Shown: piece by piece, positions 34,614 to 52,668 of the stretch | Layout: every line of letters starts with the position of its first letter | Position numbering within the stretch: the stretch's first letter is position 1 | NCBI RefSeq assembly: GCF_004403515.1 | Contig: NZ_SOHH01000056.1 | Coordinates: 65,653 to 129,652, forward strand | Length of the DNA stretch: 64,000 nucleotides | Source: Cryobacterium fucosi | GTDB taxonomy: Bacteria; Actinomycetota; Actinomycetes; Actinomycetales; Microbacteriaceae | Direction: 5' to 3' | Notes under the pieces: model-generated | Told to the model about the DNA's origin: nothing | The model's database searches: none | Seen by the model: the letters and a program-made list of their open reading frames with translations, nothing else | Position numbers and translations under genes: made by a program

Positions 34614-35855
34614 ATGAGCTTCACTCCGCTGCACCGCGCGCTCGGTCTGCCGCCGAGCATACTTACCGACGAGATCCTTAACGCCGCGGTTGCGTCCGGG
34701 GCGGTCGAAACTGACGATCTGGACTGGAAGTCGGAGCTTCCCCCGATCAAGAACCTCTCGCAGACCGATGTCCCCAAGGACATCGCTGCAATGGCAAACA
34801 GCGGCGGCGGAATGATCGTCTATGGGGTCAAGGAGAATCAGAAGGTAGCAACTGGCCGTGCGGACACTGGCGAGTTCAGCGAAGGGCATGAGCGTGCCTA
34901 TCGAAGTGTGGCCGTCACGGCGATCGTCCCGCCCGTGTTTGGTATAGAAATCTATCGGCTCGGCATCAATACCCGAGCCGTTGCCGTGAGCGTTCCGGCA
35001 AGCGTGGATGGCCCACACCTCATCTACAAGAACGACTACTTCGGCGCACCCATCCGCAACGACGCGGACACCGCATGGATGAAAGAGCGGCAGATCGAGG
35101 CCATGTATCGTGCGCGGTTCAACGAGCGGCGACGTGCCACGGATGCTCTCGACGGCCTCTACAGAGAGTCCGTTGAGGAACACGACACCTCTACAAGAGC
35201 ATGGCTAATCGCCGCCGCGCATCCGCGCATTCCAGTGCTCGCCCGCCCGGACCGCGACGAGGTGCGGAAGATCTTCGAACGCGCGCGGGAAATCACGCTT
35301 ACTTACTCGAACCGCAGCGGCATCCACCCGGTCGAGAACATCGACTATCTCAACCCACGCCCAGGGCTACGCCGCTGGACTGCTGTCAACACCGCGACCG
35401 GCAGTCAGCAATGGCAGGAAGCCTGGGCGAGTGTGCACCATGACGGCTCCGTGACTTTGGCGTCCGCAGTCGGCGGACACCGGAAGAGCGCTGACGGCTA
35501 CTTTGACGGATGGCAGGTCGAGGGCCGCGGCATCGAAGGGGCAGTAGCCGACTTCATGGCCTTGATCCGGGCAACAGCGGATGCGCTCCATACTGACGAA
35601 TACGAAGTGAGAGTCGGTGTCGAATGGGCTGGAGACGAACCGCTGTCCATACTCACAGTCGATGGCTCGAACTTCACCTACGACGGAGCCTCCACGCCGT
35701 TGCGGCGATTCACCCCCGTCTCCTCGACAATCACTGCGACAGGATCCGATGACTCCTTCCAACGGCAAGTTCATGACTTGGCCGAAGACTGCGTGAATCA
35801 AGGCGGGATCACCTACTTGCATATGATTTCCGAGCCGCCCGAGGCAGATGGCTAG
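34614..35855 (+). CDS. AlbA_2 (Schlafen-type) DNA-binding domain protein
   Basis: This 413-residue protein has DDLDWKSELPPI and IAAMANSGGGMIVYGVKEN, the E-x-K and following Gly-rich segments of the AlbA_2/Schlafen domain, then RAVAVSVPASVDGPHLIYKN and FGAPIRNDADTAWMKERQIE, the C-terminal part of that domain. The remaining 250 residues have no motif I know. AlbA_2 proteins include putative ATP-dependent regulators and defence factors, and the Schlafen fold can carry tRNA/RNA nuclease activity. It sits alone between direct repeats. Confidence 0.78.
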   Translation: MSFTPLHRALGLPPSILTDEILNAAVASGAVETDDLDWKSELPPIKNLSQTDVPKDIAAMANSGGGMIVYGVKENQKVATGRADTGEFSEGHERAYRSVAVTAIVPPVFGIEIYRLGINTRAVAVSVPASVDGPHLIYKNDYFGAPIRNDADTAWMKERQIEAMYRARFNERRRATDALDGLYRESVEEHDTSTRAWLIAAAHPRIPVLARPDRDEVRKIFERAREITLTYSNRSGIHPVENIDYLNPRPGLRRWTAVNTATGSQQWQEAWASVHHDGSVTLASAVGGHRKSADGYFDGWQVEGRGIEGAVADFMALIRATADALHTDEYEVRVGVEWAGDEPLSILTVDGSNFTYDGASTPLRRFTPVSSTITATGSDDSFQRQVHDLAEDCVNQGGITYLHMISEPPEADG

Positions 35856-38107: not shown

Positions 38108-41100
38108 TCAAAGCGTGAGCCCGCGGGGGTCACGCGTGGGCGCCGGGGTCGGTGCGTCAGGCTGCTGCCCCTCGCGAGCGAGCGAACGTAGCGCCGCTTC
38201 GGCTCTTGCACGGTCGATCTTCTGCGCCACGGACTCTGGCGGCAAACCGAGCACTGACGAGTCCGTGATGCCGTAGCGGTCCCGATACGCCGCGATCACT
38301 CGTGCAGAGCTCCGCCAGGCTGCGACCTGTCTGGAACCGGTGGGAACCTCCTCCAGCTCAGCGATCCACGGTGCGCCAGTTGCAAGCGCGGTGTCGAGCA
38401 CCGCGTCACCACGTTGCTCGATCAGGTCGCGTCGTTCGTCGAGTGCCCAGCGCATGTCGTCGCTCATAGGCCCGGATGCTTCGGGGATTAGCCCGACGAT
38501 GAGTTGCGGCGATCTACGCGCCCTCCCCGATCCGGCGGGACGAGCGGATGCTGCGGCGACACGGTGATGGAGGACGGCGGCGATATCGTCGGCATCCTTG
38601 AAGCCGCGGGCTCGAACCAGTCGCGGCAGCAGGGCATCGACGTCATGATGGTTCGCCTCGGCGCGTCGTAGCTCCGCGGTCAGTGGTCCGAACGATTCGG
38701 ATTCGATCGCCTCCACCGCCTCGGCTTCGGTGAGGCCCGATGAACTGATGAGCGCCGCCCAGCGATCGCGCTGCGCGGCTGCGGCAATGGTCTCGTATTC
38801 AGCCGCGAGCTGGGCAATCGATCCCCAGGACTCCTGCTCGGAGACGATCGTTTCGTGGGCGGAGAGTTCTGCTCCGACATGGTGAAGCACGCCGTAGAGA
38901 ACACTACGACCGGTCGCCTCGTCGTTGTCGCCAGGGTGCGGCACTTCGTGAGTGGCGTCAAGCTTGTCTACGGCGACATACGCGACGTTCGCGTCCCTCC
39001 CCCGGGTCATCGCAACGTAGAGGTTTTCGCGCGTCATTCCAGAGTCGACGAGGACATGTGCGGTGTCAGTAGTGATGCCTTGAGCGCGGTACGACGTGAC
39101 CGCGTACCCGAGATCGAGGTGCTCTGTGACGTAGTCGGCCGGTAACAGAACGGTGGTACCCCAAGTTCGTCCTGCGCGCTGCACCAGCATCGAGCCATCG
39201 GTCCGGACGTCCGCGACGGTCCATCGGTCGCCGTTGCGGACCCAACCTCGCCTCGTCCTCAGCCTCCGGTCGTTGCGGCGAGTGATGACGCTGTCTCCGA
39301 TCGCAGCCCGCGTGCCGTCGTGGAGTTCGACTTCGCGAGGACCCACGACTGTTCCGTCGAGAATGAGGTCAGTACGCGCCCGGTTGTTCAGTGCGGTGAC
39401 GGACTCGTTCGAATCCGCCACGAGCACGGTCGCCTTCCCTGCGAGCACGTCAACGCGCCAGCCGTCATAGGCCGCGTCGAGTATCTCCTCTGTACCGCCG
39501 TCGCGCACCCGACTATGGGCGTCGTACGTGTCGATGACGTCCGTGTGGCCGTGGCGCAGGCCAAGAGAGGCGATCTTCTCCCACTCGTGGGTGAAGCGGT
39601 GAACGTCGACGAGCTCGGGGACATCACCGCGGGTATGAACGAGTAGCCCGAACGCACCACCTGCGTCAACAGATTGGAGTTGCGCATAATCACCGACGAG
39701 CAACACTTTCGCGCCTGCGTCGGCGGCGAGTCCAGCGATGCGGTCCAGTGAGAGAGTGCCAGCGAGGGATGCTTCATCGAGGATCACGAGCTGTCCCACG
39801 CGGAATGTCTCCCCGGTTGTCAGGTGGTTCTGCCACCACTTCGCGGTGTTCTCTGTCGTGATCCCGAGATCATCGCCCAGTACCTGTGCGGCACCGGCGG
39901 ACGGCGCCAGGCCCACCACACTGCCTGTGCCGTGCTCGGCTTCCCATGCGCGTCGCAGCGCGTGCATCGCTGTTGTTTTGCCCGCCCCGGCAGGGCCGAC
40001 GAGGACGTCGACGACAAGGCCTGAGACAGCGATACGCGTCAGCGCTGCGGCTTGATCCTCCCCCAGCATCCGGCCCGCACGATCTGGCTTCCGCGTGATC
40101 TGCTCAATCGTGGCCAACGCCACCGACGGGCCCGTATTCGTGTTGGCGAGTTTGAGGAGTCGGTCTTCCGCCGCAAGGAGATCGCCCGACGAGAACACGG
40201 TCGAGTGCTTCGGCCTGAACACTGACGACTCATCGCCGCGCCGAAAGACCGCGGGGCTGGAGGCCAGCTCCGGCGGCGTGAGGCGAAGCGAGACTGACTC
40301 AGCGGCGTCAACGACCATGCCAACGACGGCTTCTCGATCTTCTGCAGTGGCGAACCGATAGCACATTGTCTGGCGTGCGGCTTCCGCAGTGAGGTTCCAT
40401 CGCCGCCACGTCGAACGCTTCTCCCCCACCGCCGCGACGACGCTCTGCCCGATAGATCGAATCACATCCAGCGGAAGATCATCGGCACGCAGCAGCAATG
40501 GTGCAGCGTGCCGAGCGATGGTGAGGGCCCATTCCGTCGCGTCGGCTCCAAGGATGCGCCCTGCGCGTCGCCGCCACTCCGTCGTGAGGTCGGTCAGGGA
40601 ATGAACTTGCTTCTCCGGCCTCGTCGACAGAGTCGCTCGGGCGCGCAGTTTCATGATCGTTGCCGGAGAGGGACGATGCCCATGCTCAGCGAGGTAATCC
40701 GCGATCAGCCGATCGGTCTCAACGTTGATATGACGAGCGCGCGTCGAGAATTCTGCCACCAGCTCCTCCGGTACCGCGCTGATCGCCCAGGCAGGATTGC
40801 GGTCGCGGCCCATCTCGCGCGGCTCCCACCCCACACCGAGCATCCGCGTCAGGTGGTCCGCGAAGATCGCCTCGTGTAACTCCGAGAGCGCAACGACCGC
40901 AGCATGCATGGGGCGCCCATCCAGGCTTCGCCACTTGTCATCGAGGACGGTTTGAACCTTATTGCTGATGACGACGTGAGTGTGCAGGTGTGGGTCGCCA
41001 GCACGCGAGTCGTAGTGGTCGTAGGCCGTTGCGATGATCCCGCGTACGTCGACCTGTGCGACAGCGCCATCGCCAGCGGTTGCACCGGTGCGGGTGGCTG

Positions 41101-41656
41101 CAACCTCACGTTCCATGAATGCAACCATCTCCGCAACCGCGGCATGATGTGCGTCAGCAATTAGGGATTGCGTCCCCGCGTCGGCTACTGCCCACAGGAC
41201 CGATGCAGACTTTGGAATCGAGAAGGTGAAATCGTAGCCCGCGACTGCGCGGCGCGTACCTCGCTGGGCTTCTTCAGCTTCGATTGCCGCGATCGCGCTG
41301 CCTCGCTCGGCCGGGCCAAGGGCGGGATCGAGTGCGGCTGCGCGTTCCTCGATGCGTTCGACGACCGTCGTGTAGACGGGGTAAGCGCGGCCAAGAGGTT
41401 CGCCGGTGATCGGGTCCCGGCCCATACCCACGAGTAGTTGGAGTTGGGCTTCGCTGACCTGGTCGCCCGCGGTGAGCTGTCCTCCCCCGAGACCCGGCAG
41501 GCCGCTGCCAGCCCATCGTCCCGGTGGAGTGCCGTCGGCGTCGTAGTACCTCGTCAGTGGAGTCGAGAGCGATCGCTCGCCGTCTCCAGCGGCGACGGTC
41601 TTCAGGAGGTACTTGTAGCCGTCGCCAGCCGACATCACACGCATCGAGACCGTCAC
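38108..41656 (-). CDS. MobF-family relaxase-helicase (TraA/TrwC type)
   Basis: This is a protein of about 1182 residues. The start is taken as GTG at 41656 (MTVSMRVMSAGDGYKYLL), eight bases after GGGAGGT, rather than the ATG at 41680. The N-terminal relaxase domain has the HUH motif GDPHLHTHVVISN and FTFSIPKSASVLWAVAD. A superfamily 1 helicase follows, with Walker A VGPAGAGKTTAMHALRRAWE, QLVILDEASLAGTLSLD, VLLVGDYAQLQSVDAGGAFG and LGYAVTSYRAQGITTDTAHV, YVAMTRGRDANVAYV. It nicks oriT and unwinds the transferred strand in conjugation. Its gene lies downstream of the split dprA and is transcribed toward it. Confidence 0.93.
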   Translation of the reverse strand: MTVSMRVMSAGDGYKYLLKTVAAGDGERSLSTPLTRYYDADGTPPGRWAGSGLPGLGGGQLTAGDQVSEAQLQLLVGMGRDPITGEPLGRAYPVYTTVVERIEERAAALDPALGPAERGSAIAAIEAEEAQRGTRRAVAGYDFTFSIPKSASVLWAVADAGTQSLIADAHHAAVAEMVAFMEREVAATRTGATAGDGAVAQVDVRGIIATAYDHYDSRAGDPHLHTHVVISNKVQTVLDDKWRSLDGRPMHAAVVALSELHEAIFADHLTRMLGVGWEPREMGRDRNPAWAISAVPEELVAEFSTRARHINVETDRLIADYLAEHGHRPSPATIMKLRARATLSTRPEKQVHSLTDLTTEWRRRAGRILGADATEWALTIARHAAPLLLRADDLPLDVIRSIGQSVVAAVGEKRSTWRRWNLTAEAARQTMCYRFATAEDREAVVGMVVDAAESVSLRLTPPELASSPAVFRRGDESSVFRPKHSTVFSSGDLLAAEDRLLKLANTNTGPSVALATIEQITRKPDRAGRMLGEDQAAALTRIAVSGLVVDVLVGPAGAGKTTAMHALRRAWEAEHGTGSVVGLAPSAGAAQVLGDDLGITTENTAKWWQNHLTTGETFRVGQLVILDEASLAGTLSLDRIAGLAADAGAKVLLVGDYAQLQSVDAGGAFGLLVHTRGDVPELVDVHRFTHEWEKIASLGLRHGHTDVIDTYDAHSRVRDGGTEEILDAAYDGWRVDVLAGKATVLVADSNESVTALNNRARTDLILDGTVVGPREVELHDGTRAAIGDSVITRRNDRRLRTRRGWVRNGDRWTVADVRTDGSMLVQRAGRTWGTTVLLPADYVTEHLDLGYAVTSYRAQGITTDTAHVLVDSGMTRENLYVAMTRGRDANVAYVAVDKLDATHEVPHPGDNDEATGRSVLYGVLHHVGAELSAHETIVSEQESWGSIAQLAAEYETIAAAAQRDRWAALISSSGLTEAEAVEAIESESFGPLTAELRRAEANHHDVDALLPRLVRARGFKDADDIAAVLHHRVAAASARPAGSGRARRSPQLIVGLIPEASGPMSDDMRWALDERRDLIEQRGDAVLDTALATGAPWIAELEEVPTGSRQVAAWRSSARVIAAYRDRYGITDSSVLGLPPESVAQKIDRARAEAALRSLAREGQQPDAPTPAPTRDPRGLTL

Positions 41657-41827
41657 AGCCGCCCACCTCCCCTCGCTCATCGAGGAGGTGAGCGACCGCC
41701 GCCGGAGGCAAGGACCTCGATCTGCAAGAGGCGTGGTAGCTCAAGGGTCTAGGAGTTGTGGGAGTGCCAACGAGTGGATGTCGGAGCAACCTGAGAGGAT
41801 GGAGGTTGCATCGACTTCAGGAGACAG

Positions 41828-44800
41828 ATGGGCATCAAGGACTCTGCGCGAAAGACTCTATGGTCTCGCGCGCATGACCAATGCGCCCTCCCCAGCTGCC
41901 TGCAAGCGCTTACCTTGGATACGCCTACCGAGGACGGCTCTTCGACCGTGAAGGTCATCGGAGAGGAAGCACATATTCGGGCGCGTAGCGCGGGTGGACC
42001 GCGCTACGACCGGGAATATGTCGATGTCGATGGGTACGACAACCTTGTATTGATGTGCCCAACCCATCACACAATGATCGACACGATGGGCGGCGCTGGA
42101 TACACCGTTGAAGCGCTTATTGAGATTAAGAAGAGGCACGAGAAAAACCAATCTCGCAGAGCGGAACTCGAAAGAACGCTTCGCGCATACCTGGGCGATC
42201 GATTCGCAGCTGAGGGCTCCGTACAGTTCCAACAGGTTGATCTCCGAGGGCCGTCCGTGGACGCCATGTTCGTCGATGTACCTGTTGGCAGTCGGCGCGA
42301 TGGGTCCGAGTTAGCGAAATTGCTCGGGGAGATAGCGGCATCTGCGCCGGGTGACACTGAAACTCTTGAACGAGACTCAGGTCTTGTCGTGACCGGTGCA
42401 GCGCAAGCCTTGTTACATCCCGATTGGAAAGGTCACGCGGTCCTTGTAGGAGGTCCAGGTCAAGGAAAGTCCACCGTTTTGCAGTACGTGTGCCAGTTCC
42501 ATCGGGCGAGAAAGCTAGGAGAAGACGGCTACACGGCCGGTCCAACCGAACTCGTTCGTATGAGAGCCACCTCTCGGTTCCCATTACGGGTTGAACTGCG
42601 CAGGTATGCAGAATGGGCGACTCAGTCGCCATCGCCGTTAGCTCCGAAGAAGAAGCGGAAGAACCAGGAGTCGACCAACCTCGCCGATAACTGGAGGAGC
42701 CTCGAAGAGTATGTGATCGAAGACATCCGTCGGCACATCGGAGCTAACGAGTTCTCGGCTCGTGATTTAGCGCTTTTGCTCGCCACTGAGCCAGTGCTTC
42801 TCGCGCTCGACGGGCTAGATGAAGTTGCAAGCCTCCCTACACGAGAGCGGGTAGTTAGTGAGATCACACAGATGCGGGGTCGTCTGAAGGCGGATGCCGC
42901 GGATCTCATGATCCTCGTTGCAACACGCCCTGGAACCTCGTTGCAGCCGCTGACGGCATCAAATGCATTCCCGGTTCTTCATCTGCAACGCCTTACTCAA
43001 GGACTCAGGCTTCAATATCTACAGAAATGGTGCGAGGTATCACGGCTGACCCCGGAGGAGACCACCAAGCTGCAGAAGACATTCATGGACAGTCAGCATG
43101 TAGCTCACGTCAACGAACTCGCGTCTTACCCGATGCAACTGGCCATCCTGCTCCACCTCCTCTACCGTCGCCAGCTATTACCACAACAAAGGACGGATCT
43201 TTATGCGGAGTACTTGAAGACCTTCCTTGACCGAGAACAAGGCGAAGACAAGGAACCGCTGCTAGCTGATCAGCGCAGAGTTGTGGAAGAAACACACGCA
43301 TACCTCGGCTGGTACTTGCAGACCAAAGCCGAAGAAGGTCAGAGCGCCGGATCTATCAAGCGCGACGAACTCCGAGCGTTACTTCAGGCCTACCTTGCAG
43401 GACGTCCGCGCGCGCAAGAGCTCGCTGACGAGCTCTACTCCGCAATCACAGATCGCGTGTTGTGCATGGTAGAGCGGGAGGACGCTTTCGAATTTGAAGT
43501 ACAGTCTCTTCGCGAGTACTTCGCCGCACTACACATCTTTGAAAACCTGACCCCTAAAGGAAACGGAAACTCGCGAGACGACGGGCTCAATGCTCTGCTG
43601 GAGCGCCCATACTGGGCGAATGTATGCCGGTTCTTCATCGGAAATCTTGCACGCGGCGAAGTCCGAGGATTAAGCGGGAATTTCCGTCATGTAGAGAAAC
43701 GCGTAGAACCGCATCCTTTGATTCGTTCAATGGCGGTCACGCTCCTCAACGATCGCATCTACGACAGGCTTACGACCGTCGAGATAGGCGAAATCGTCGA
43801 CTTCGCGCTTGGCGGGCCAGGAATCGTATTTGCGGAAGACGGCGTGCTGGATCCGGCCGGGACCCCGCTTCGCCTTGGTGAAGACGCGGGACGGGCGCAA
43901 GCCGTGGCCCATCTCCAAAGCCGCGTATTGGAGGCGCCGCCCGGATCTGTTCGTTCATTAGCTGAGCAAAGTCTCCATGCGCACGGAGTAGCCGAGGACG
44001 ACCTCTCGGGCTGGTGGTGGGAACATTTCAAGCCAACCGACGAGTGGTTACAGACAGCTTCTCATCTGGGCGTCCTTTCGGGGCTCTCAGCTGATCGGAT
44101 TGGCAGGCTTCGCGACGTTATGGACGCCTCGGCAGACCTATCGGAATGGTCTGCTGAGCTACTGCTAAACGGTGGCTACGACGACAACGACGATCCGATC
44201 GCGCATTCGGTAGTTCGTAGCCTGAACCAGGGCTACGCCGAGACAGCAGAGCGACTCAGCCTGGGAACCGACGCCGCGGTGCTCGTCTCCTGCGCGGCGG
44301 ACGTCCTCGCTGGGCCGTTTGTGACTACTCAGATACCCGCGGTCAGGACGTCTAGGCTGTCCGAGCTTGCTGTTCGAGTTCTAGAAGGCACCCGTGCACT
44401 TCGAACCGATCATTCTCGCGTTGAAACGGACAACGACTGGCTCGAATACCTTACTGCGATCGCGAATATCTGGGGCGACGGATGGGTGCTCCGGCGGGCT
44501 GTCTCGATGACCCCCGACGCCGTGGACCTCGCGTTGATAGCGCTGCGTACCCAGAACGATGCTCTGACTCGCGCCGGGCACGTCGAGGCCGACTATCGCA
44601 CCCATAAGGCCGATGCTGATTGGTGGCAGGAGAAGCTCAAGAAGAAGACCGACCAGACATCGCTTGCGCTGATGATCATCGCGCTACTCACCACAGCACG
44701 CAGCAACGTCATCATGGTGCTCGCGTCGAACCTGGAGTCAGCACTTGCCAACGTCGGTCCAAAGATGTTCCGCGCGATTGAGCGCGCACTCCACCGTGAT

Positions 44801-45253
44801 GCCGCCGCTCGCCGGGTACGGCCTCTCGACTTAAGCGAAGCACTCCGCCTGCAACATGTCTCGCTCTCAGGCAGGGCACTTTGGCTGGCATGGATCATTG
44901 GGTCTGATTCAACACGCGAGCGCATACCAGCCCGCCTCGAGCCTGAGATCCGCGACGTGTTTCTGGCCGGAACTTACGACGGACGAGCGGTCGTGAACGC
45001 GGCGAGGTCGACTCGAAAGCTCAAACTAGAAACATTCTTCGGTGCTCGCTTCTCGATGCCCGTTGGAGGTTGGGCAGATCCGGCACACCTCGTCACCATG
45101 CCAATCAAGACCGCTCAGTCAATCCTCGAAAGCCCCGGCGAGTGGCCTGCCGACCTCGTGCAAATCGCAGTGGACAAACTCGGGTCACGTGCCGCCGCTC
45201 GTGCCCGTCCACTCGCGGAGGTTGCGACAAGCAATCGCTGGTTCGAAAGATAG
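41828..45253 (+). CDS. HNH nuclease - NACHT (STAND) NTPase fusion, candidate anti-phage NLR
   Basis: This is a 1141-residue protein; GGAG lies before the ATG. Residues 1-100 are an HNH domain: Cys19 and Cys24 (CALPSC), His49 in GEEAHIRARSAGG, Asn72 and CPTHH at 77-81. A NACHT module follows, with Walker A VGGPGQGKSTVLQYV (about 207-221), Walker B LLALDGLDEVASLPTRER, and VATRPGT, LHLQRLTQGLRLQY and MQLAILLHLLYRR. The C-terminal half is long and helical, suiting a sensor domain. In bacterial NACHT defence proteins the N-terminal effector is activated when the C-terminus recognises a phage product; an HNH effector would cut DNA. It is divergent from the relaxase gene. Confidence 0.85.
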   Translation: MGIKDSARKTLWSRAHDQCALPSCLQALTLDTPTEDGSSTVKVIGEEAHIRARSAGGPRYDREYVDVDGYDNLVLMCPTHHTMIDTMGGAGYTVEALIEIKKRHEKNQSRRAELERTLRAYLGDRFAAEGSVQFQQVDLRGPSVDAMFVDVPVGSRRDGSELAKLLGEIAASAPGDTETLERDSGLVVTGAAQALLHPDWKGHAVLVGGPGQGKSTVLQYVCQFHRARKLGEDGYTAGPTELVRMRATSRFPLRVELRRYAEWATQSPSPLAPKKKRKNQESTNLADNWRSLEEYVIEDIRRHIGANEFSARDLALLLATEPVLLALDGLDEVASLPTRERVVSEITQMRGRLKADAADLMILVATRPGTSLQPLTASNAFPVLHLQRLTQGLRLQYLQKWCEVSRLTPEETTKLQKTFMDSQHVAHVNELASYPMQLAILLHLLYRRQLLPQQRTDLYAEYLKTFLDREQGEDKEPLLADQRRVVEETHAYLGWYLQTKAEEGQSAGSIKRDELRALLQAYLAGRPRAQELADELYSAITDRVLCMVEREDAFEFEVQSLREYFAALHIFENLTPKGNGNSRDDGLNALLERPYWANVCRFFIGNLARGEVRGLSGNFRHVEKRVEPHPLIRSMAVTLLNDRIYDRLTTVEIGEIVDFALGGPGIVFAEDGVLDPAGTPLRLGEDAGRAQAVAHLQSRVLEAPPGSVRSLAEQSLHAHGVAEDDLSGWWWEHFKPTDEWLQTASHLGVLSGLSADRIGRLRDVMDASADLSEWSAELLLNGGYDDNDDPIAHSVVRSLNQGYAETAERLSLGTDAAVLVSCAADVLAGPFVTTQIPAVRTSRLSELAVRVLEGTRALRTDHSRVETDNDWLEYLTAIANIWGDGWVLRRAVSMTPDAVDLALIALRTQNDALTRAGHVEADYRTHKADADWWQEKLKKKTDQTSLALMIIALLTTARSNVIMVLASNLESALANVGPKMFRAIERALHRDAAARRVRPLDLSEALRLQHVSLSGRALWLAWIIGSDSTRERIPARLEPEIRDVFLAGTYDGRAVVNAARSTRKLKLETFFGARFSMPVGGWADPAHLVTMPIKTAQSILESPGEWPADLVQIAVDKLGSRAAARARPLAEVATSNRWFER

Positions 45254-45422: not shown

Positions 45423-46514
45423 TCAGTCGTCGAGCCCAAAGGCCGCACTGACCTGCTCGATCGTGAACTGCTGACGCAACTTGGCCGCTGTGTTCTGATT
45501 CGCAAACATTCCAGCCTTCCAGAACCCTTGTTCGCTCGGCACCGTATGGGTCCAATCGATAGGAACAGCCCATTCGGCCACGAGGTCATCGCTGCCGCCC
45601 TCATGCCGGTAATCACCTTCAAGGGGCAACTCCTTCAGTGGGATCTCCACGCCATCCTTGTTCACGACGGCCTCATCAAAGCGTCGCGCTTCGCCCGTCA
45701 CTGTTCCCACGCCCACGTAACCCACCTTCGGGATACAGGCAAAGACGCGGGCACCCGGGGTCAGGTTCTTGAGTGTCTGCGAGAACCACTTGCCGCCACC
45801 GCCAGATACGAAGCCGTATTTCCTGCCGTCTGACCACTGACGCCCACCGGGATGCTCTCCAAAGGAGACGTACCAGTCGGAGCCGTTCCACGGTTCGCGG
45901 GTTTTTGCCTTCCGAGACGAGGAAGCAGTCGACGCCGTCGTCTGCCCATCGTGTTCGACGAGCCAGGTGCGGGCCAGGTAAGAAGCTCCGTTGTCAGTGA
46001 AGTGGCGAAAGAAAACAACATTGATCGGCACGCCGAAGTCCTCGTTGAGGAAGCGCACAATTCGTTCGGTCGCGGGATCAACACTTGCTGCGACGATCGT
46101 GAACACCTGAGAAGCGTTTACCTCCTCGGGTAGCGTCTCGTTGAAGCACTCCGTGAATGCTTCCTCAAGCGCAACCTTCGGCCTGTAGGTCTCAAAGATC
46201 GTCTGGATGTCAGCCCGTCCGAGCGTGGATGCCCACGACCCGTAGTCGAGTGCCTGTGCGGTGACGTCGCGTGGAGTCTTGTCTCGCTTGAGTTCAATGA
46301 CATGCACGGCCGCGGTCTCGTCGAGAGCGAGCAGGTCGATGAAGCCGCCGTGGGCGGTGGAAACTTGCCTGCCGATGATGAGCAGAGTCTCGCCGAGCAT
46401 GGTCGGATCGGACTCGATGTAGGTTTCGAGCTGCGACTCCAGACCGATCGCGGTCGGCACGATGCGGCTCAGCTTGTCACCGTCAGCTCGCCAAAGGCCC
46501 ATCTCTACTGCCAT
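45423..46514 (-). CDS. NucS/DUF91-like PD-(D/E)xK nuclease-type protein
   Basis: This is a 363-residue protein. The N-terminal part has LETYIESDPTMLGETLLIIG, then GGFIDLLALDETAAVHVIEL followed by KRDKTPRDVTAQALDYGSWA. The Asp in FIDLLA, the Glu-x-Lys in VIELKRD and the Gln in AQALDYGSW are the layout of endonucleases of the NucS/DUF91 type. The C-terminal part has GSDWYVSFGEHPGGRQWSDG, GARVFACIPKVGYVGVGTV and a tail FTIEQVSAAFGLDD, suggesting an EVE/PUA-like module. It overlaps the GIY-YIG gene by 10 bases and ends a five-gene operon. Confidence 0.78.
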   Translation of the reverse strand: MAVEMGLWRADGDKLSRIVPTAIGLESQLETYIESDPTMLGETLLIIGRQVSTAHGGFIDLLALDETAAVHVIELKRDKTPRDVTAQALDYGSWASTLGRADIQTIFETYRPKVALEEAFTECFNETLPEEVNASQVFTIVAASVDPATERIVRFLNEDFGVPINVVFFRHFTDNGASYLARTWLVEHDGQTTASTASSSRKAKTREPWNGSDWYVSFGEHPGGRQWSDGRKYGFVSGGGGKWFSQTLKNLTPGARVFACIPKVGYVGVGTVTGEARRFDEAVVNKDGVEIPLKELPLEGDYRHEGGSDDLVAEWAVPIDWTHTVPSEQGFWKAGMFANQNTAAKLRQQFTIEQVSAAFGLDD

Positions 46515-47728
46515 GTCACTTCTCCTCGGCCAAGCCCGACGAGCCGCTGGGTCTGGGCGTCGTAGACGTAGTCCACGATCTCACCAGACACGATCAGCTC
46601 GACGGCCTGGTCGATCACAAAACGTGGGACAACGAACCACTCTGAGGGGTCGTAGTCGCGGCCCTTTCGGTCGATTTGCGTGAGATCGAGACGAACCTCC
46701 GCGAAGACGCGGTGAAGGAGGTTCTCGAACTTCACAACGTTGAGGTTGTACGTCTGGTAGGTCGCCACCACCTCGACTGGTGCCATCAAGTACGTTGGTG
46801 ACTTCTCCGCATTCTGGATCCGCTTATCAACAGCGCCACGGGAGAATCCAATCTTGTGCAGGTGCTCCATGCCAGAGATCTTCGGGTCGTCACTGAGCGA
46901 GCGGAGTACGTAGATGTAACCGCTCGCGACATCGTCACCGTCAAGCACCTCGTCATCGTTCAGCCCAGTCTGGACGATCGCCTGACCGTCCTGCTCGAAG
47001 AGACGGATCGACAGGGACTGACGGTACATAGCCGACTCGGTGCCGTTCTCAAAGATCACGCGCAGACGCTGCTTCTGCTCGGCCTTGCCTCCAACGACCA
47101 TCTCACGAGTCTCACCGACTTCGGCAACGAACAGCATGACTCCATTGAGGACGAAGAATCGTCCCTCAGTCACCGTGCGGAGGCCCTTAAATGGTGCGAG
47201 CCGCATCGTCTTCTCGGCAAGCTCCGTGTGCTTATCTTTGAAGAGATGCTCGAACTGGTCAAAGTCCTGAGCCTTCTTCCGCTTCGCGACCGAATCGATC
47301 TCGCTCGGTGCTTTGCGGATAGGCAGATCCGAAACATCGAGCAGCCCAGACTCATCGGCCAGCAGGTCGAGGTCATCCCCTTCCAAGAGATCATCGAGCG
47401 AGACAGGAGCCTCGGGCGCCTCCAGCAGACCGAATTCGTCGTCCAGCGGCTTCAGCGCGGCAATCTTGTCGTCGTTTGCGAGGATCCCGTCGAGACGGGC
47501 GCCAAGCTTGCGTTCCGCAATCGTGCGGGTCTGCGGATCCGGGACACGACCGTGCGAGCGGCGGAACTCTACGATCTCCAAGAACGCGCGCTCCAGCCGG
47601 TCCGCCGAGGTGACCTTCTTTGCCTTTTCAGGGGCATCGAGGAGACCGTCAACATCGGAATCGAGGATCGCGTCAATGTTTGTGGGGAACGCGAAGTCGA
47701 CCGGCCCGATGCTCATCCCGTCACTCAT
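46505..47728 (-). CDS. T5orf172-type GIY-YIG nuclease family protein
   Basis: This is a 407-residue protein. The first 180 residues are acidic and probably disordered (SLDDLLEGDDLDLLADESGL). The C-terminal domain SGYIYVLRSLSDDPK, HLHKIGFSRGAVDKRIQNAE, VEVVATYQTYNLNVVKFENL, HRVFAEVRLDL matches T5orf172/MUG113 GIY-YIG nucleases, with YIYVL and KIGFS in place of GIY and YIG, the Arg in KRIQNAE and Glu in KFENLLH. It overlaps the helicase gene by four bases. It is the candidate cleaving subunit of the methyltransferase-helicase system. Confidence 0.82.
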   Translation of the reverse strand: MSDGMSIGPVDFAFPTNIDAILDSDVDGLLDAPEKAKKVTSADRLERAFLEIVEFRRSHGRVPDPQTRTIAERKLGARLDGILANDDKIAALKPLDDEFGLLEAPEAPVSLDDLLEGDDLDLLADESGLLDVSDLPIRKAPSEIDSVAKRKKAQDFDQFEHLFKDKHTELAEKTMRLAPFKGLRTVTEGRFFVLNGVMLFVAEVGETREMVVGGKAEQKQRLRVIFENGTESAMYRQSLSIRLFEQDGQAIVQTGLNDDEVLDGDDVASGYIYVLRSLSDDPKISGMEHLHKIGFSRGAVDKRIQNAEKSPTYLMAPVEVVATYQTYNLNVVKFENLLHRVFAEVRLDLTQIDRKGRDYDPSEWFVVPRFVIDQAVELIVSGEIVDYVYDAQTQRLVGLGRGEVTWQ

Positions 47729-49710
47729 TCTTCATCCACCATTTCAGTAGCTCGTTGCGCGGCGGCGCGCTCCTGCTTTTTACGCTGAAGGAACAACAGG
47801 ACTTCGGCGTACCGCTTCTCCGTCGGATCCTCAGAACGCACGTTTGGGCGACCGTTGAGTTTCGCCCACTGCTGAATCTTTGGCCAGGCCGCTAATGCTT
47901 CTTCCTCGGTGATCTCCACCCGGGTCGCGGTGATGGAGTCCTGGATGATCCGCAGCACGGATGGCGTGACCGACTTCGACAACACTTCGAAGGCGCGCTG
48001 GAACGGGTTGACTGAGTCGATGAGGTTGATATTGATGTCGTCGATGTTGACAAACTTCTCGGCCATTTTGATGAACCGTTTGTCGCCGACTTCGCGAACT
48101 TCGCTGTTCTTTATCACCGAGTCCACGACAACCTGCTGACGTAGCTCCTCAACCTGCGACTCATCCAGCTCTGGATACCGCTCACGGATGATCTTCGGGA
48201 TCAACACCTTGTTCGTCGTCTCGGGATCTACCGAGCCCGCTGCGGCTTTCGCGAACGTGTCGTCTTGCAGGATCGTTGCCTTCAGGTCGTTGAGGTCAGT
48301 CTCGATGATCTGCTTGACCCGCTCAGTGGAGGGTTCTTTGAAGCCCTTGATCTTGATGACACCTGGCGCTTGTGCGTCGTCGTCGCCGGTGCGCTTGGTT
48401 TTGAACGTGAAGTTCTGTGCCAGCACCTGCTCCATCAGCAGCGAAGCCGTGATCGCCTTGAGCATGTTATTCACAGACACCTTCACTTCGCCCTGGGAGG
48501 CGTCAGGCTCAGCGATCAGATTCGTAAACTGCGCATGCTCCTTGCCCGCGCTGTCCCGGGTGACACGACCGATGATCTGGATCACCTCAGTCAACGACGC
48601 CCGGTACCCAACCGTGAGCGCGTGCTCGGCAAACGGCCAGTCAAACCCCTCCTTCGCCATACCGAGCGCGAGGATCACGTCCACCGCATCACGGTCCTTG
48701 GATGCGACCGTAGAGAGGTAGTGCAGGGTGTCGGCACGCTTCTTCTGATCCGTGTCATCCACCAGATCCGCGAGAAGAAGGATTTCACCGTTGTCGTTGC
48801 GGCGGATGCTGATGATCCCAGTGTCGGGGTGGGTGGACTCGACGTGACCAATCGAGTCGATGATGAACCCGACCTCTTCAATCTTGTCTTTGGTCGACTC
48901 GCCCGAGTTCACGTTCGGGATATGCACGATCGTCTTCTTATCAAGGTCGAACACCTCACCGATCGCGTCGGTGTAGCGACCCTGGTAGAAGTGGTGACCG
49001 ATGCCGAGCGAGTGCAGGTACTCGTACCCGTTGAGCTGGTCGTAATAGTTGAACGTGACCGGCGTGAAGCGCGCTTCGTCCTCAGCCGAGAGCACCGGCA
49101 CCGAGTCACCGCGGAAGTAGGAGCCGGTCATCGCGACAATGTGCACGTCGGAGCCATTCATAACTTCACGGAGCAGGGCACCGAGACGATTGGTTTCGGT
49201 GTCGGCGGAGACATGGTGGAACTCGTCAATCGCAAGCACCGTGCCGTCGAATGCTGCGGGAGCAAGCTTCTCGAATGCGAACCGCAATGTTGCGTGCGTA
49301 CACACCAGCGTTGTGGCAGAGGAGTCGTTCAGGAAGTCGATAAACGCACCGACCTTGCCCTGCGAGGAGCCCGGGTCGCAGAGATTGTGTTTGGGCTTGA
49401 CGTCCCAGTCGGTGAAGAACCCGAACTTCGTAAGGTTCGTTGAGGAGAACGATGCCCCGATCGAGCGTTCCGGGACGGCAACGATGACCTTTTTGCGGCC
49501 TTGGTTGTAGAGCTTGTCGAGGGCGACGAACATGAGCGCACGCGACTTGCCCGACGCAGGTGGTGCCTTCACGAGGAGGTGCTGGGCGTCGCGCTTCGCG
49601 AAGACGCGCTGCTGCATCTCGCGCATACCCATCGAGTCGATGTTGACCGACGCCTTCGTGCGGGCATAGGTCACATCAACGATGTTGACCGGTTTCTTGA
49701 TCGCGTTCAT
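47725..49710 (-). CDS. DEAD/DEAH-box superfamily 2 helicase
   Basis: This is a 661-residue protein. Walker A is VKAPPASGKSRALMFVALDK at about 47-66. Motif II is VLAIDEFHHVSAD, motif III is IVAMTGSY, and the second RecA domain contains VDVILALGMAKEGFDWPFAE and ASLTEVIQIIGRVTRDSAGK with the arginine finger of motif VI. The organisation is that of restriction-type translocases and helicases. It overlaps both neighbours by four bases, between the methyltransferase gene and the GIY-YIG gene, implying a stoichiometric complex or a coupled pathway. Confidence 0.88.
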   Translation of the reverse strand: MNAIKKPVNIVDVTYARTKASVNIDSMGMREMQQRVFAKRDAQHLLVKAPPASGKSRALMFVALDKLYNQGRKKVIVAVPERSIGASFSSTNLTKFGFFTDWDVKPKHNLCDPGSSQGKVGAFIDFLNDSSATTLVCTHATLRFAFEKLAPAAFDGTVLAIDEFHHVSADTETNRLGALLREVMNGSDVHIVAMTGSYFRGDSVPVLSAEDEARFTPVTFNYYDQLNGYEYLHSLGIGHHFYQGRYTDAIGEVFDLDKKTIVHIPNVNSGESTKDKIEEVGFIIDSIGHVESTHPDTGIISIRRNDNGEILLLADLVDDTDQKKRADTLHYLSTVASKDRDAVDVILALGMAKEGFDWPFAEHALTVGYRASLTEVIQIIGRVTRDSAGKEHAQFTNLIAEPDASQGEVKVSVNNMLKAITASLLMEQVLAQNFTFKTKRTGDDDAQAPGVIKIKGFKEPSTERVKQIIETDLNDLKATILQDDTFAKAAAGSVDPETTNKVLIPKIIRERYPELDESQVEELRQQVVVDSVIKNSEVREVGDKRFIKMAEKFVNIDDININLIDSVNPFQRAFEVLSKSVTPSVLRIIQDSITATRVEITEEEALAAWPKIQQWAKLNGRPNVRSEDPTEKRYAEVLLFLQRKKQERAAAQRATEMVDEE

Positions 49711-52421
49711 TTGCCTATGCCCCTGGTCTTCTTCGCCGGGGCCTTCGCAGCCTCCTCGGCGGTCATACGCTCGTACATAGCGAACAGATCTGAGAGACGC
49801 TGTTCATCGGTCTCATATCCGCGCTTGGAATAGATCGAGTCCACCAGCTCATCCACGGCCGCATGCGCGGCACGTAAATCGGCAGGCATGAGGTCGGGAT
49901 CGTACAGCGTGGCGAGGGTCTGCTCGCAGTGATAGTCGCGCACATCCAGTACTCGCAACGCCGCCATAGTGAGCTGTTCCTTCACCGCATCCGAAAGGGG
50001 CGGCACCGGGAAGTTGTTGTAGACGATCGTGTTCGAGTACTGGTAGTCCTCTCGCATCCGGCCACCGACCGCCCCGGTCCATGCGACATGGGCGCGAGAG
50101 GTCATAAGTGCAAGGACCCATGGCTCCGCATCGTAAATTCCAAAGGCGGACGCGTTGATGACGGTATCCGCATCGAGATAGCCAACCGGGATGTACTCCC
50201 GCCGCTCAGAAGAAACCTTCGGCATGATGATGGCCTCGGTGGGCTTGTATCTAACCTCGCCGAAGCGGTATGGAACCTTAGCCAAAATTTTGGTCGCTGC
50301 CTTTGCGCTGCCGGCACGCATGGAAGCAGTACGTTCGAACCGAGCGCTCAGCTCCGGGATGCTTTTCGCCAGCTGGTAGTCGCGATCAGATACCCAAACA
50401 CAGTACTTATCTTGAGCATTGATGAACTCAACAGAACCCAATATTCTTCGAACGAACGGTTCCGCCTCTGGATGCTTGGAGAGCAGGCGCCCGCGATCCT
50501 CCGGTTCAAGCATCAGATTTCCCCAGTCCGTCCCTTTGGACCCGAAGGTCATGGGCGGCAGCTCTGACAACGGCTTTGATCGAGGCAGCACGAAGACGTT
50601 GTCACCGTCCGAAAGGTAGCCGTTGATATTTCGCGCCTCTAGTTGGAGACCACCAGCGTAAATGTACTTGCCGGAGCTTTCTTTGTTTCGCAGGCAAACC
50701 ACCACGACAGTCACACCAGCATTCCGTTTGGCGTTGTTCTCCCACTTGAACGAGGTGTATACGTATCCAATCTCGATTCCGATTGCAAAGATCATCGGGA
50801 ACATGAGTCCGACTTGCTCGCCCTGAGCGATTGAGTTAGTGCTGACGAATGAGAGTTTTGCGCGAGTACCTTCGATATAGTCAGCACCCTTGACGAACCA
50901 GAGTGACACGTAATCCAGCTTTTTTGAGAACGGTCGCGCGCCAAACACAGGAAAGAAATCAGATTTCTGATCCTTGCTTTGTTCCTTTACCCCCGCGTAC
51001 GGTGGATTCCCAATCAGGTAGATCTCGCCGCCGTCGTTACGGCACACCACATTCCAGTCAACGCGGGTGGCGTTTCCTTGCTGGATCTGCCCGGTCTCCT
51101 TCAGCGGGATGAGCGGGATGGATACACCGAACTTGTCCTTGAACTCACTGTTCATCTGGTGCTTCGCGATCCACAGGGAGAGGATTGCGACCTCGACTGC
51201 GAAGTCGTCGATTTCGATGCCAAAAAAGTTCTCGATGTTGATTTTCGACTCAGCGTAAAGCACCTGATGTCTCTGATCGAGGTCGGCGAGTCGTTCCAGG
51301 ATCGCGTGCTCCACGCGGCGCAATTCCTTGTACGCGATGACGAGGAAGTTGCCTGATCCACACGCGGGATCGAATACCTTGATCGCGCTGATGCGAGTCA
51401 GCAGGGCTTCGAGCTTTTTGGCGGAGTCGAACGCGGTGTCGAACTGCGCCTTGAGTTCATCGAGGAAGAGCGGCTCGATGGTTTTGAGGATGTTCGGCAC
51501 CGACGTGTAGTGCTGACCTAGGTCACTGCGCTTACCCGGGGTAACTATCGCTTGGAACATAGATCCAAAGATGTCGGGGTTGATCTCGCGCCAGATCAGC
51601 GTCCCCGACTCGACCAGCAGTTCGCGAGCCTTCTTCGTGAATCTCGGCACGAACTGCTCGGACGACATCGTAAAAAGGCGCCCGTTGACGTACGGGAACG
51701 CAGCCAGGTGCTTGGGCTTGTCCTCGGCACGCTCTGTGTCGAGCGCCGTAAACAAATCAGTTAGGAATTCGGCGACATCCGACCCGTCGGTTTGCGTGTG
51801 GGAGCCGACGGCGTTGGTGAACTGGTTGTCGTCAAAGATTCCAGTGTCTTCGGCGAAGAAGCAGAAGAGCAGCCGGGTGAAAAAGATGTTGAGCGAGTGT
51901 CGCCCGTTCGGTGCTTCGAGTAGGCCGGGGTTTGCGCCAAGCAGCTCGTCGAAGAGCTTGCCCATCCGTTCAGCAGCTTTAACGTCGGCGTGGGCTTCGG
52001 CGACATACTGTGCCTTCTCCATGCCTGCCCAAGGCAGAAAGAACGTGAAGTGCTGGTCGATCTCCCGAATTGGGAAGCCGATGGTCTCACCGGTCTTCGT
52101 GTCCGTGGCGACCAGTTCTGTGTAGTCGGTGACGATCACAAACCGGGTGTTAAACCGCACCACCGCCGGTGAAGTCTTCAGCTCGTCGATCACCGCGAGC
52201 GGGTCGCCGGGTGTCTCCTTGAAATAGACGACGTTTTTCTGCGCCACCTCGGCCTCTGGATCAACGGCGACATTCAGCGAACCATGGCGCAGACGCGTGA
52301 CGTTGCCCTGCGGCTTCCCATACGCGAGCAGCAGATCGAAAATGAACTCGCGGCCGTAGGAGTCATGACCTCCAAGCGGTGCAACTCGATCCTCGACAGC
52401 TTTGAGGTTCAGCTTTACCAA
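49707..52421 (-). CDS. MmeI/YeeA-like N6-adenine DNA methyltransferase
   Basis: This is a protein of about 904 residues. The SAM-binding motif is KVFDPACGSGNFLVIAYKEL and the catalytic motif is YLIGNPPYAGVKEQSKDQ, the order and spacing of gamma-class N6-adenine methyltransferases. Later NTIVYNNFPVPPL and SNSIAQGEQV-like segments (here STNSIAQGEQVGLMFP) match the target-recognition part of MmeI/YeeA relatives. The start is uncertain. TTG at 52421 (VKLNLKAVEDR) after a GAAGG site is preferred; the frame opens at 52535 inside the upstream HTH gene. No nuclease domain is obvious at the N-terminus, so cleavage must come from a partner. Confidence 0.85.
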   Translation of the reverse strand: MVKLNLKAVEDRVAPLGGHDSYGREFIFDLLLAYGKPQGNVTRLRHGSLNVAVDPEAEVAQKNVVYFKETPGDPLAVIDELKTSPAVVRFNTRFVIVTDYTELVATDTKTGETIGFPIREIDQHFTFFLPWAGMEKAQYVAEAHADVKAAERMGKLFDELLGANPGLLEAPNGRHSLNIFFTRLLFCFFAEDTGIFDDNQFTNAVGSHTQTDGSDVAEFLTDLFTALDTERAEDKPKHLAAFPYVNGRLFTMSSEQFVPRFTKKARELLVESGTLIWREINPDIFGSMFQAIVTPGKRSDLGQHYTSVPNILKTIEPLFLDELKAQFDTAFDSAKKLEALLTRISAIKVFDPACGSGNFLVIAYKELRRVEHAILERLADLDQRHQVLYAESKINIENFFGIEIDDFAVEVAILSLWIAKHQMNSEFKDKFGVSIPLIPLKETGQIQQGNATRVDWNVVCRNDGGEIYLIGNPPYAGVKEQSKDQKSDFFPVFGARPFSKKLDYVSLWFVKGADYIEGTRAKLSFVSTNSIAQGEQVGLMFPMIFAIGIEIGYVYTSFKWENNAKRNAGVTVVVVCLRNKESSGKYIYAGGLQLEARNINGYLSDGDNVFVLPRSKPLSELPPMTFGSKGTDWGNLMLEPEDRGRLLSKHPEAEPFVRRILGSVEFINAQDKYCVWVSDRDYQLAKSIPELSARFERTASMRAGSAKAATKILAKVPYRFGEVRYKPTEAIIMPKVSSERREYIPVGYLDADTVINASAFGIYDAEPWVLALMTSRAHVAWTGAVGGRMREDYQYSNTIVYNNFPVPPLSDAVKEQLTMAALRVLDVRDYHCEQTLATLYDPDLMPADLRAAHAAVDELVDSIYSKRGYETDEQRLSDLFAMYERMTAEEAAKAPAKKTRGIGK

Positions 52422-52476
52422 GGGAGGCCTTCTTTCATGAGGTTCATCACACCAGGGACCACTGACATTGCTGAGA

Positions 52477-52668
52477 TCATTCACTCGCCTCCGGCGCTGC
52501 AGCCCCGCCTCGACGCACCCAGTCGTCAACTTCACTCGCCTGGAACTTCCAGAGCCGCCCGATCTTGTGGGCAGGCATGCCCTTCTCGGCGATCCAGGTG
52601 TAGACGGTGTCCTTGGTGACGCCGAGATGAACAGCGATGTCGTCAGCTGACAGCCACGGTTCGGTCAC
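52477..52668 (-). CDS. Small excisionase-like HTH protein heading the restriction operon
   Basis: This 63-residue protein has WLSADDIAVHLGVTKDTVYT, WIAEKGMPAHKIGRLWKFQA and SEVDDWVRRGG, an HTH_17 winged helix. It lies 55 bp before the methyltransferase start on the same strand. Such small HTH proteins regularly precede restriction or defence operons in mobile elements and probably act as controllers rather than as excisionase. Confidence 0.82.
   Translation of the reverse strand: MTEPWLSADDIAVHLGVTKDTVYTWIAEKGMPAHKIGRLWKFQASEVDDWVRRGGAAAPEASE

Follow-up and report, generated by a model that had tools for sequence, protein, structure and literature searches.

Gene content of the locus

The subject of this analysis is a five-gene operon of Cryobacterium fucosi, located in a 64,000-nucleotide stretch of its genome (hereafter, the window; contig NZ_SOHH01000056.1, positions 65,653 to 129,652), and in particular its last gene, which encodes a predicted nuclease, S11, that matches the PDC-S11 model of PADLOC. 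The other four genes encode a small helix-turn-helix (HTH) protein, an MmeI-like DNA methyltransferase (MTase), a superfamily 2 (SF2) helicase, and a GIY-YIG-type protein. All five open reading frames (ORFs) are on the minus strand of the window in the ORF list. The genome (3.44 Mb in 122 contigs) is designated G000 in our samples, with the window on the contig labeled G000:C107. The features, in the order of the operon, are as follows:

52477..52668, minus strand: HTH_17/excisionase-like small DNA-binding protein, 63 amino acids (Pfam HTH_17)
49707..52421, minus strand: MmeI-like adenine DNA methyltransferase (DnmA/YeeA type), 904 amino acids from TTG (five MmeI Pfam domains)
50028..50605, minus strand: stretch of the MTase gene in the target-recognition domain that is unalignable with locus L040 in a DNA alignment in which the flanks align
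47725..49710, minus strand: SF2 helicase (YeeB type), 661 amino acids (DEAD and ResIII)
46505..47728, minus strand: T5orf172/MUG113 GIY-YIG-type protein (YeeC type), 407 amino acids (domain at residues 270 to 379)
45423..46514, minus strand: predicted nuclease S11 (PDC-S11; PADLOC model, predicted structure, and Foldseek)

The MTase and helicase genes overlap by 4 bp, the helicase and GIY-YIG genes by 4 bp, and the GIY-YIG and S11 genes by 10 bp. As listed, the MTase ORF begins at GTG 52535 and ends at 49707; in nearly all homologous loci, however, the homologues align only from about the residue encoded at TTG 52421, which is preceded by an AGAAGG-like ribosome site. With this TTG as the start, the gap between the HTH and MTase genes is 55 bp, so that the coordinates, overlaps, and gap of the five-gene operon proposed in an earlier reading of the window from sequence alone (the sequence-only reading) are all reproduced.

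The nearest relative seen, Salinibacterium sp. G-O1 (L040), has the five genes in identical order, with protein identities of 93% for S11, 95% for the helicase, 87% for the GIY-YIG protein, 77% for the MTase, and 94% for the HTH protein. Neither S11 nor the helicase is detected in the 5 other Cryobacterium genomes of our sample, as expected for an acquired locus.

The DnmA-YeeB-YeeC trio and its HTH neighbor

The MTase contains five MmeI domains, each scoring above its Pfam cut-off, and a phmmer search aligns its residues 90 to 901 with MmeI (5hr4; E = 7e-181). This alignment begins past the region of the ExK motif. At the presumed position of that motif in MmeI, the 25 trio MTases with a visible N terminus have a YFKET-like stretch and no ExK. 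The helicase matches the Pfam domains DEAD (33.5 bits) and ResIII (23.5 bits) above their cut-offs, with Helicase_C slightly under its own. The GIY-YIG protein matches MUG113 (55 bits) and T5orf172 (51.8 bits), both above the Pfam cut-off, and its G270, Y273, R303, and E335 are among the invariant columns of an alignment of 28 sequences.

By its domains and gene order, this MTase-helicase-GIY-YIG set is the published DnmA-YeeB-YeeC ("Type I-like") trio. The resemblance to YeeA/YeeB/YeeC noted in the sequence-only reading is thus borne out by the Pfam domains, the gene order, and the published cluster alike. In two publications, dnmA-yeeB-yeeC is described as a conserved cluster of MTase, helicase, and T5orf172 genes for which a Type I-like nature is suggested (PMC9973331, PMC7261158). 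The window shares with the trios of Bacillus subtilis and Vibrio crassostreae the MmeI-like MTase, the SF2 helicase, and the T5orf172 gene in identical order and adds S11 and the HTH gene; the passages of the two publications on this cluster do not mention a fourth, PD-(D/E)XK gene.

Helicase scans of 299 genomes of the same family (E ≤ 1e-10) and 347 genomes of the same order (E ≤ 1e-50) detect homologues in 10 and 7 genomes, respectively; the window genome is common to both sets, leaving 16 distinct ones. Homologues of the MTase and the GIY-YIG protein flank the helicase in all 16, with the MTase of genome G505 interrupted by a contig end.

The HTH protein matches HTH_17 (53.7 bits, above the Pfam cut-off) and TIGR01764 (56.9 bits). 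It also resembles MAD1, scoring 73.1 bits with the MADS1 model NF047737, under the curated cut-off of 80. Membership of the operon in the MADS system (mad1 to mad8) was considered and rejected on the NCBIfam scores, as MAD2 reaches 23.5 bits versus a cut-off of 720. Of the 25 other trio rows whose contig shows the sequence upstream of the MTase gene, 2 have the HTH gene (tblastn, E ≤ 0.01); it is an optional neighbor of the trio.

Sequence and predicted structure of S11

S11 matches the PADLOC model PDC-S11 (PDLC04916) over its full length (residues 1 to 361, 492 bits, E = 2.1e-148). It fits the whole model; in PADLOC, this is a single-gene candidate, with neither mechanism nor partner given in the library output. 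The Pfam NucS_C domain scores 21.6 bits, under its cut-off of 24. S11 relatives were collected by a genome scan, with 146 confirmed; the counts out of 80 given below refer to the best 80 of these (L040 to L119), which are 93 to 46% identical to S11. A motif collection recovered 50 of the 80 S11 frames; 38 sequences and the window entered the structure alignment, and 35 and the window entered the tail alignment. In the 39-sequence alignment that includes the window, D60, E74, K76, and Q87 are invariant, in the arrangement IDLLA, VIELKRD, and then Q. In a PDB profile search with a maximum E of 1, the single sequence match is NucS (2vld), which aligns with S11 residues 24 to 92 (E = 3.7e-4) over NucS residues 125 to 192 only.

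The AlphaFold model of full-length S11 has two domains joined by a disordered linker at residues 187 to 205 (predicted local distance difference test [pLDDT] score, 83.5; predicted template-modeling [pTM] score, 0.49). In the models, a NucS-type PD-(D/E)XK domain spans residues ~1 to 186 and an EVE/YTH-like domain spans residues ~206 to 363. Foldseek searches with the full model retrieve EndoMS/NucS (E = 4e-5) and 2eve (E = 2.1e-3). Modeled by itself, the tail has a pLDDT score of 88.6 and a pTM score of 0.86, and its best Foldseek matches are VcaM4I (4.7e-4), PH1033 (9.4e-4), and 2eve (2.3e-3), followed by THYN1 with 5-methylcytosine DNA (4.5e-3), DrmAB (4.8e-3), and numerous YTH domains, which read N6-methyladenine, from E = 8.5e-3. 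The models suggest that S11 is a NucS-type PD-(D/E)XK nuclease fused to an EVE/YTH-like (PUA) reader domain. The PD-(D/E)XK layout noted in the sequence-only reading thus holds, with its invariant residues and a NucS fold in Foldseek, and the EVE/PUA-like tail that it had considered possible is backed by the structure models at modest scores.

Genomic contexts of S11

Neighbors were sought by tblastn within the fetched flanks of S11 loci, and the 13 Type I operons described below were listed by hand. Genes in these high-GC loci were called with codon scoring; 2 of 85 loci lack a called S11 gene, though tblastn detects S11 there. Four pairs of loci are duplicates (L044 and L135, L108 and L025, L050 and L023, and L090 and L140).

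In 13 of the 80 loci, the trio, or the part of it visible on the contig, lies directly upstream of S11 on the same strand, so that the four-gene order MTase-helicase-GIY-YIG-S11 recurs beyond chance. S11 adjoining a trio occupies one slot, after the GIY-YIG gene, on one strand, in all 13 fetched cases. In two of them, L065 and L096 (10001 to 11085 in each), the trio is otherwise full length but the S11 gene behind it is split between two frames, indicating that S11 can be lost.

A second context is provided by Type I restriction-modification (R-M) genes. HsdM or HsdR matches are found in the flanks of 22 of the 80 loci, and 13 of these are contiguous same-strand Type I operons. S11 is placed between HsdS and HsdR in six (L104, L107, L114, L117, L118, and L119); follows HsdM/HsdS, with at least one further gene before HsdR, in four (L072, L100, L103, and L108); and follows HsdR in two (L059 and L097). 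The contig of L098, with the order HsdM, S11, and an Mrr gene, stops before any HsdR. A Type III Mod-Res pair precedes S11 in a single locus (L043). Pfam searches with representatives confirm the HsdM, HsdS, HsdR, Mrr, and Type III Res assignments. In L041, an Eco57I/ResIII gene pair is found opposite S11 on the other strand. Other neighbors of S11 include candidate defense genes in L074, L087, and L090 and housekeeping genes (Mfd-like in L062 and DnaX-like in L077).

Within the Type I operons L098, L100, and L103, an Mrr-type gene follows S11, a third nuclease in one locus; in L100, it comprises the Pfam domains Mrr_N and Mrr_cat. The S11 proteins of L098 (3134 to 4225, titled Dehalococcoidia) and L100 (10001 to 11092, titled Dietzia) are identical, reflecting either a misbinned contig or a very recent transfer.

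Relatives of S11 with less than 60% identity are present in 94 plasmid records. In 10 plasmid neighborhoods, S11 is found beside Type I genes in two (Kocuria unnamed2 and Deinococcus pDrdI), beside genes resembling those of the bacteriophage exclusion (BREX) system in one (Halomontanus), and 1.9 kb from an N-6 methylase in one (Kocuria unnamed3); the annotation of the other six shows no R-M or BREX operon of this kind next to S11, and some of these six carry a different nuclease or helicase gene. A pattern search of viral contigs gave 87 matching stretches, none of which was confirmed as S11.

Co-occurrence of S11 and the helicase was assessed without the window genome, with the helicase in 9 and 6 genomes of the family and order samples and S11 in 5 (full-length) and 7. 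When the samples are pooled, the two genes are seen together twice versus 0.27 times expected (P = 0.03). They are close to each other in both genomes: in G505, S11 occupies the slot, and in G224, it lies 3.6 kb upstream of the MTase gene.

Repeated gain or loss and a natural exchange of S11

The S11 tree includes 89 rows, from which L023, L025, L135, and L140 were excluded as duplicates. The trio label is carried by 15 rows, namely, the window, the 13 loci with S11 in the slot, and L026, whose S11 gene precedes the MTase gene by 3.6 kb. This label requires 8 changes on the tree, at least 6 of them forced by well-supported branches; shuffled labels require a mean of 14.1 changes, and none of 500 shuffles is as low as observed, indicating that association with the trio is clustered yet not of single origin. 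A Type I operon label likewise requires 8 changes, at least 7 of which are forced. On the helicase tree (28 rows), the presence of S11 in the slot requires 7 changes, of which no fewer than 5 are forced (6 to 7 changes across bootstraps), versus a mean of 9.6 in shuffles, 40 of 500 being as low. L057 and L116, whose helicases are sisters, carry S11 proteins from the two main S11 clades. By these trees, S11 appears to have been gained or lost repeatedly beside both the trio and Type I operons.

The clearest case is seen at the DNA level. L059 shares with L060, L061, L065, and L066 an S11 cassette of 92 to 95% DNA identity that begins 13 to 17 bp before S11 and runs across the gene that follows (2.26 to 2.35 kb). 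Upstream of it is the HsdR gene of a Type I system in L059 and the GIY-YIG gene of the trio in the other four loci. This is a natural module exchange, with closely similar S11 cassettes behind different upstream R-M systems.

The gene that accompanies S11 in the cassette encodes 283 to 286 amino acids (L059, 7216 to 8073, with equivalents in L060, L061, L065, and L066); it has no match in Pfam (E ≤ 0.01) or PADLOC (E ≤ 0.001).

Divergence of the target-recognition domain

The operon DNAs of the window and L040 are 86% and 76% identical on the two sides of an unaligned 578-bp stretch (50028 to 50605), which falls within the target-recognition domain (TRD) of the MTase. At the protein level, the TRD is 47% identical and the other four MmeI domains are 84 to 93% identical. 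Five of seven further close MTase pairs show the same pattern, with 43 to 59% identity in the TRD and 77 to 89% from the N terminus to the MTase domain. The drop is milder in L057/L116 (74 versus 87) and absent in L035/L036 (93 versus 95). Divergence confined to the TRD suggests an R-M system that is functional and switches specificity. The DnmA-type trios of actinobacteria may accordingly be active in restriction rather than being solely orphan-methylase relics, as proposed for B. subtilis.

Proposed function and alternatives

In the reading that we favor, at about even confidence, the operon encodes a DnmA-YeeB-YeeC-type R-M system together with a portable accessory, Type IV-like nuclease, S11. 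The MTase would serve as the recognition subunit and place N6-methyladenine on host DNA, and the helicase and the GIY-YIG protein would restrict DNA that lacks this mark. S11 would recognize a modified base through its EVE/YTH-like domain and cut with its NucS-type PD-(D/E)XK domain, blocking the escape of phages whose modified bases conceal them from the sequence-specific system. R-M systems whose MTases are of the adenine type (the trio, Type I, and Type III) would repeatedly have acquired S11 as a neighbor that they can do without. We infer methylation, restriction, dependence on modification, and any direct interaction of S11 with the trio; cleavage and modified-base reading by S11 are predictions from its structure models. 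Recognition of modified DNA, raised in the sequence-only reading, is retained as plausible. Given the fixed slot behind the trio and the corresponding positions in operons of Types I and III, and although S11 is optional there, "portable accessory" describes it better than "fourth subunit."

Several observations weigh against this reading. In 44 of the 80 S11 loci, the fetched flanks contain no match to the R-M proteins used as queries; these loci include a Streptomyces-rich clade of 14. Taken singly, the two genome samples show S11 and the helicase together in 1 of 298 (P = 0.14) and 1 of 346 (P = 0.12) genomes, neither being significant. The place behind the trio can also be taken by other genes: L033 has there a weak PDC-S05/DrmC match, and a Paenarthrobacter plasmid has an overlapping gene for 496 amino acids with a PDC-M36A match. 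As for the reader domain, the tail matches in Foldseek have template-modeling scores of ~0.24 to 0.53 at root mean square deviations of 4 to 8 Å, just two of them reach an E of 0.001, and Pfam calls no EVE domain in S11. Finally, PMC9973331 and PMC7261158 report that the B. subtilis trio had no effect on three phages and that plasmid uptake was likewise unaffected; they also cite V. crassostreae, which becomes more sensitive to some phages when its dnmA and yeeB homologues are removed.

The dedicated five-gene system of the sequence-only reading does not survive the counts, with the HTH gene beside 2 of 25 trios, the trio absent from 67 of the 80 S11 loci, and S11 missing from the slot in 14 of the 16 trio loci of the two genome samples; an obligate system is rejected, as both S11 and the HTH gene are optional. 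That reading had named independent scatter of the S11 gene as evidence against a joint system. The gene is indeed scattered beyond the trio, which goes part of the way to that refutation, but it returns to particular slots in trio, Type I, and Type III operons.

The absences of the trio and of R-M neighbors, the position of S11 upstream of the operon in G224, and the other occupants of the place behind the trio would all fit a solo defense gene that collects in defense islands and near R-M operons and merely hitchhikes on the expression of the trio, to which it would not be functionally linked. This possibility deserves attention, but we consider it somewhat unlikely: the slot and strand are the same in 13 of 13 trio cases, ten Type I operons have S11 between HsdM/HsdS and HsdR, and the short or negative spacing implies co-translation. 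The location inside Type I operons would also suit a guard of the PrrC kind, silent while the R-M system is intact and released by phage anti-restriction to attack host or phage DNA; PrrC sits within a Type IC locus and is activated upon its inhibition (PMC12707154). S11 also occurs away from any detected R-M neighbor, and a domain resembling modified-base readers would be superfluous in a guard, which makes this role improbable.

The 10-bp gene overlap and the fixed slot might instead mark S11 as an integral subunit whose nuclease activity is required for cleavage by the trio, which is highly improbable in view of the many trios with an empty slot and of the GIY-YIG protein that the trio already has. 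A role of S11 in mismatch cleavage or repair, as for NucS/EndoMS, is very unlikely as well, even though NucS is the best relative of S11 by both sequence profile and fold. The second domain of S11 resembles modified-base readers, and identity with the NucS mismatch enzyme is rejected on score (31.9 bits versus the NCBIfam cut-off of 216) and on length, as the match is confined to the nuclease domain (NucS residues 125 to 192) and the N-terminal half is missing.

An extension of the accessory-nuclease reading, to be regarded as speculative and rather unlikely, is that S11 binds to the recognition complexes of adenine-methylating systems from unrelated R-M classes (the trio, Type I, and Type III) and, with its reader domain, distinguishes the methyl mark of its partner from foreign modifications. 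If so, one accessory would make each of these systems dual, restricting both unmodified and modified DNA. Apart from this extension, the recurrence of S11 at set slots of unrelated R-M classes suggests that restriction operons are modular in their bolt-on nucleases, besides their target recognition. Should S11 depend on modification, it would transferably couple the restriction of ordinary phages to that of modified phages, and the natural swap pair, with one S11 cassette behind two upstream systems, makes this coupling testable.

Relation to known systems

Both the trio and the concept of EVE nucleases have already been published. In PMC7641849, EVE-PD(D/E)XK proteins are predicted to restrict modified DNA as Type IV enzymes, and dual restriction is predicted for EVE proteins beside Type I R-M systems. 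S11 likewise combines a predicted reader with a PD-(D/E)XK nuclease; in contrast to its setting, the main text of that paper contains no occurrence of NucS, DUF91, MmeI, or Type III. VcaM4I also carries reader and nuclease on a single chain but is an EVE-HNH protein, with the domain order opposite to the PD-(D/E)XK-first order of S11 (PMC7897488). The closest tested parallel to a methylating defense with a linked Type IV enzyme, as proposed here for the trio and S11, is BREX with BrxU, which are reported to give complementary protection (PMC8565348); BrxU belongs to the GmrSD family and accompanies BREX, whereas the window has a NucS-EVE-like S11 with the trio. Searches of the open-license PMC literature turned up neither a NucS-EVE protein nor these operon slots, nor a system with exactly this gene set, in agreement with the sequence-only reading.

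Surrounding region of the window

Next to S11, a gene on the plus strand (41828 to 45253) encodes a protein of 1,141 amino acids with an HNH-effector-like N terminus (PADLOC) and a NACHT match under the cut-off. It fills a 3.7-kb stretch at a place where L040 has 136 bp separating S11 from the relaxase gene, and therefore looks like an inserted defense gene. The relaxase, of the TrwC type (38108 to 41680, minus strand, 295 bits), adjoins S11 in L040, too; its presence near S11 in both genomes suggests that the locus is probably on a conjugative or mobilizable element. A Gabija-like pair on the minus strand (25279 to 29270), consisting of GajA (27087 to 29270, 893 bits) and GajB (25279 to 27090, 718 bits), is a putative second defense system of the region. 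A Schlafen AlbA_2-domain protein of 413 amino acids is encoded on the plus strand (34614 to 35855) and has no PADLOC match at E ≤ 0.001.

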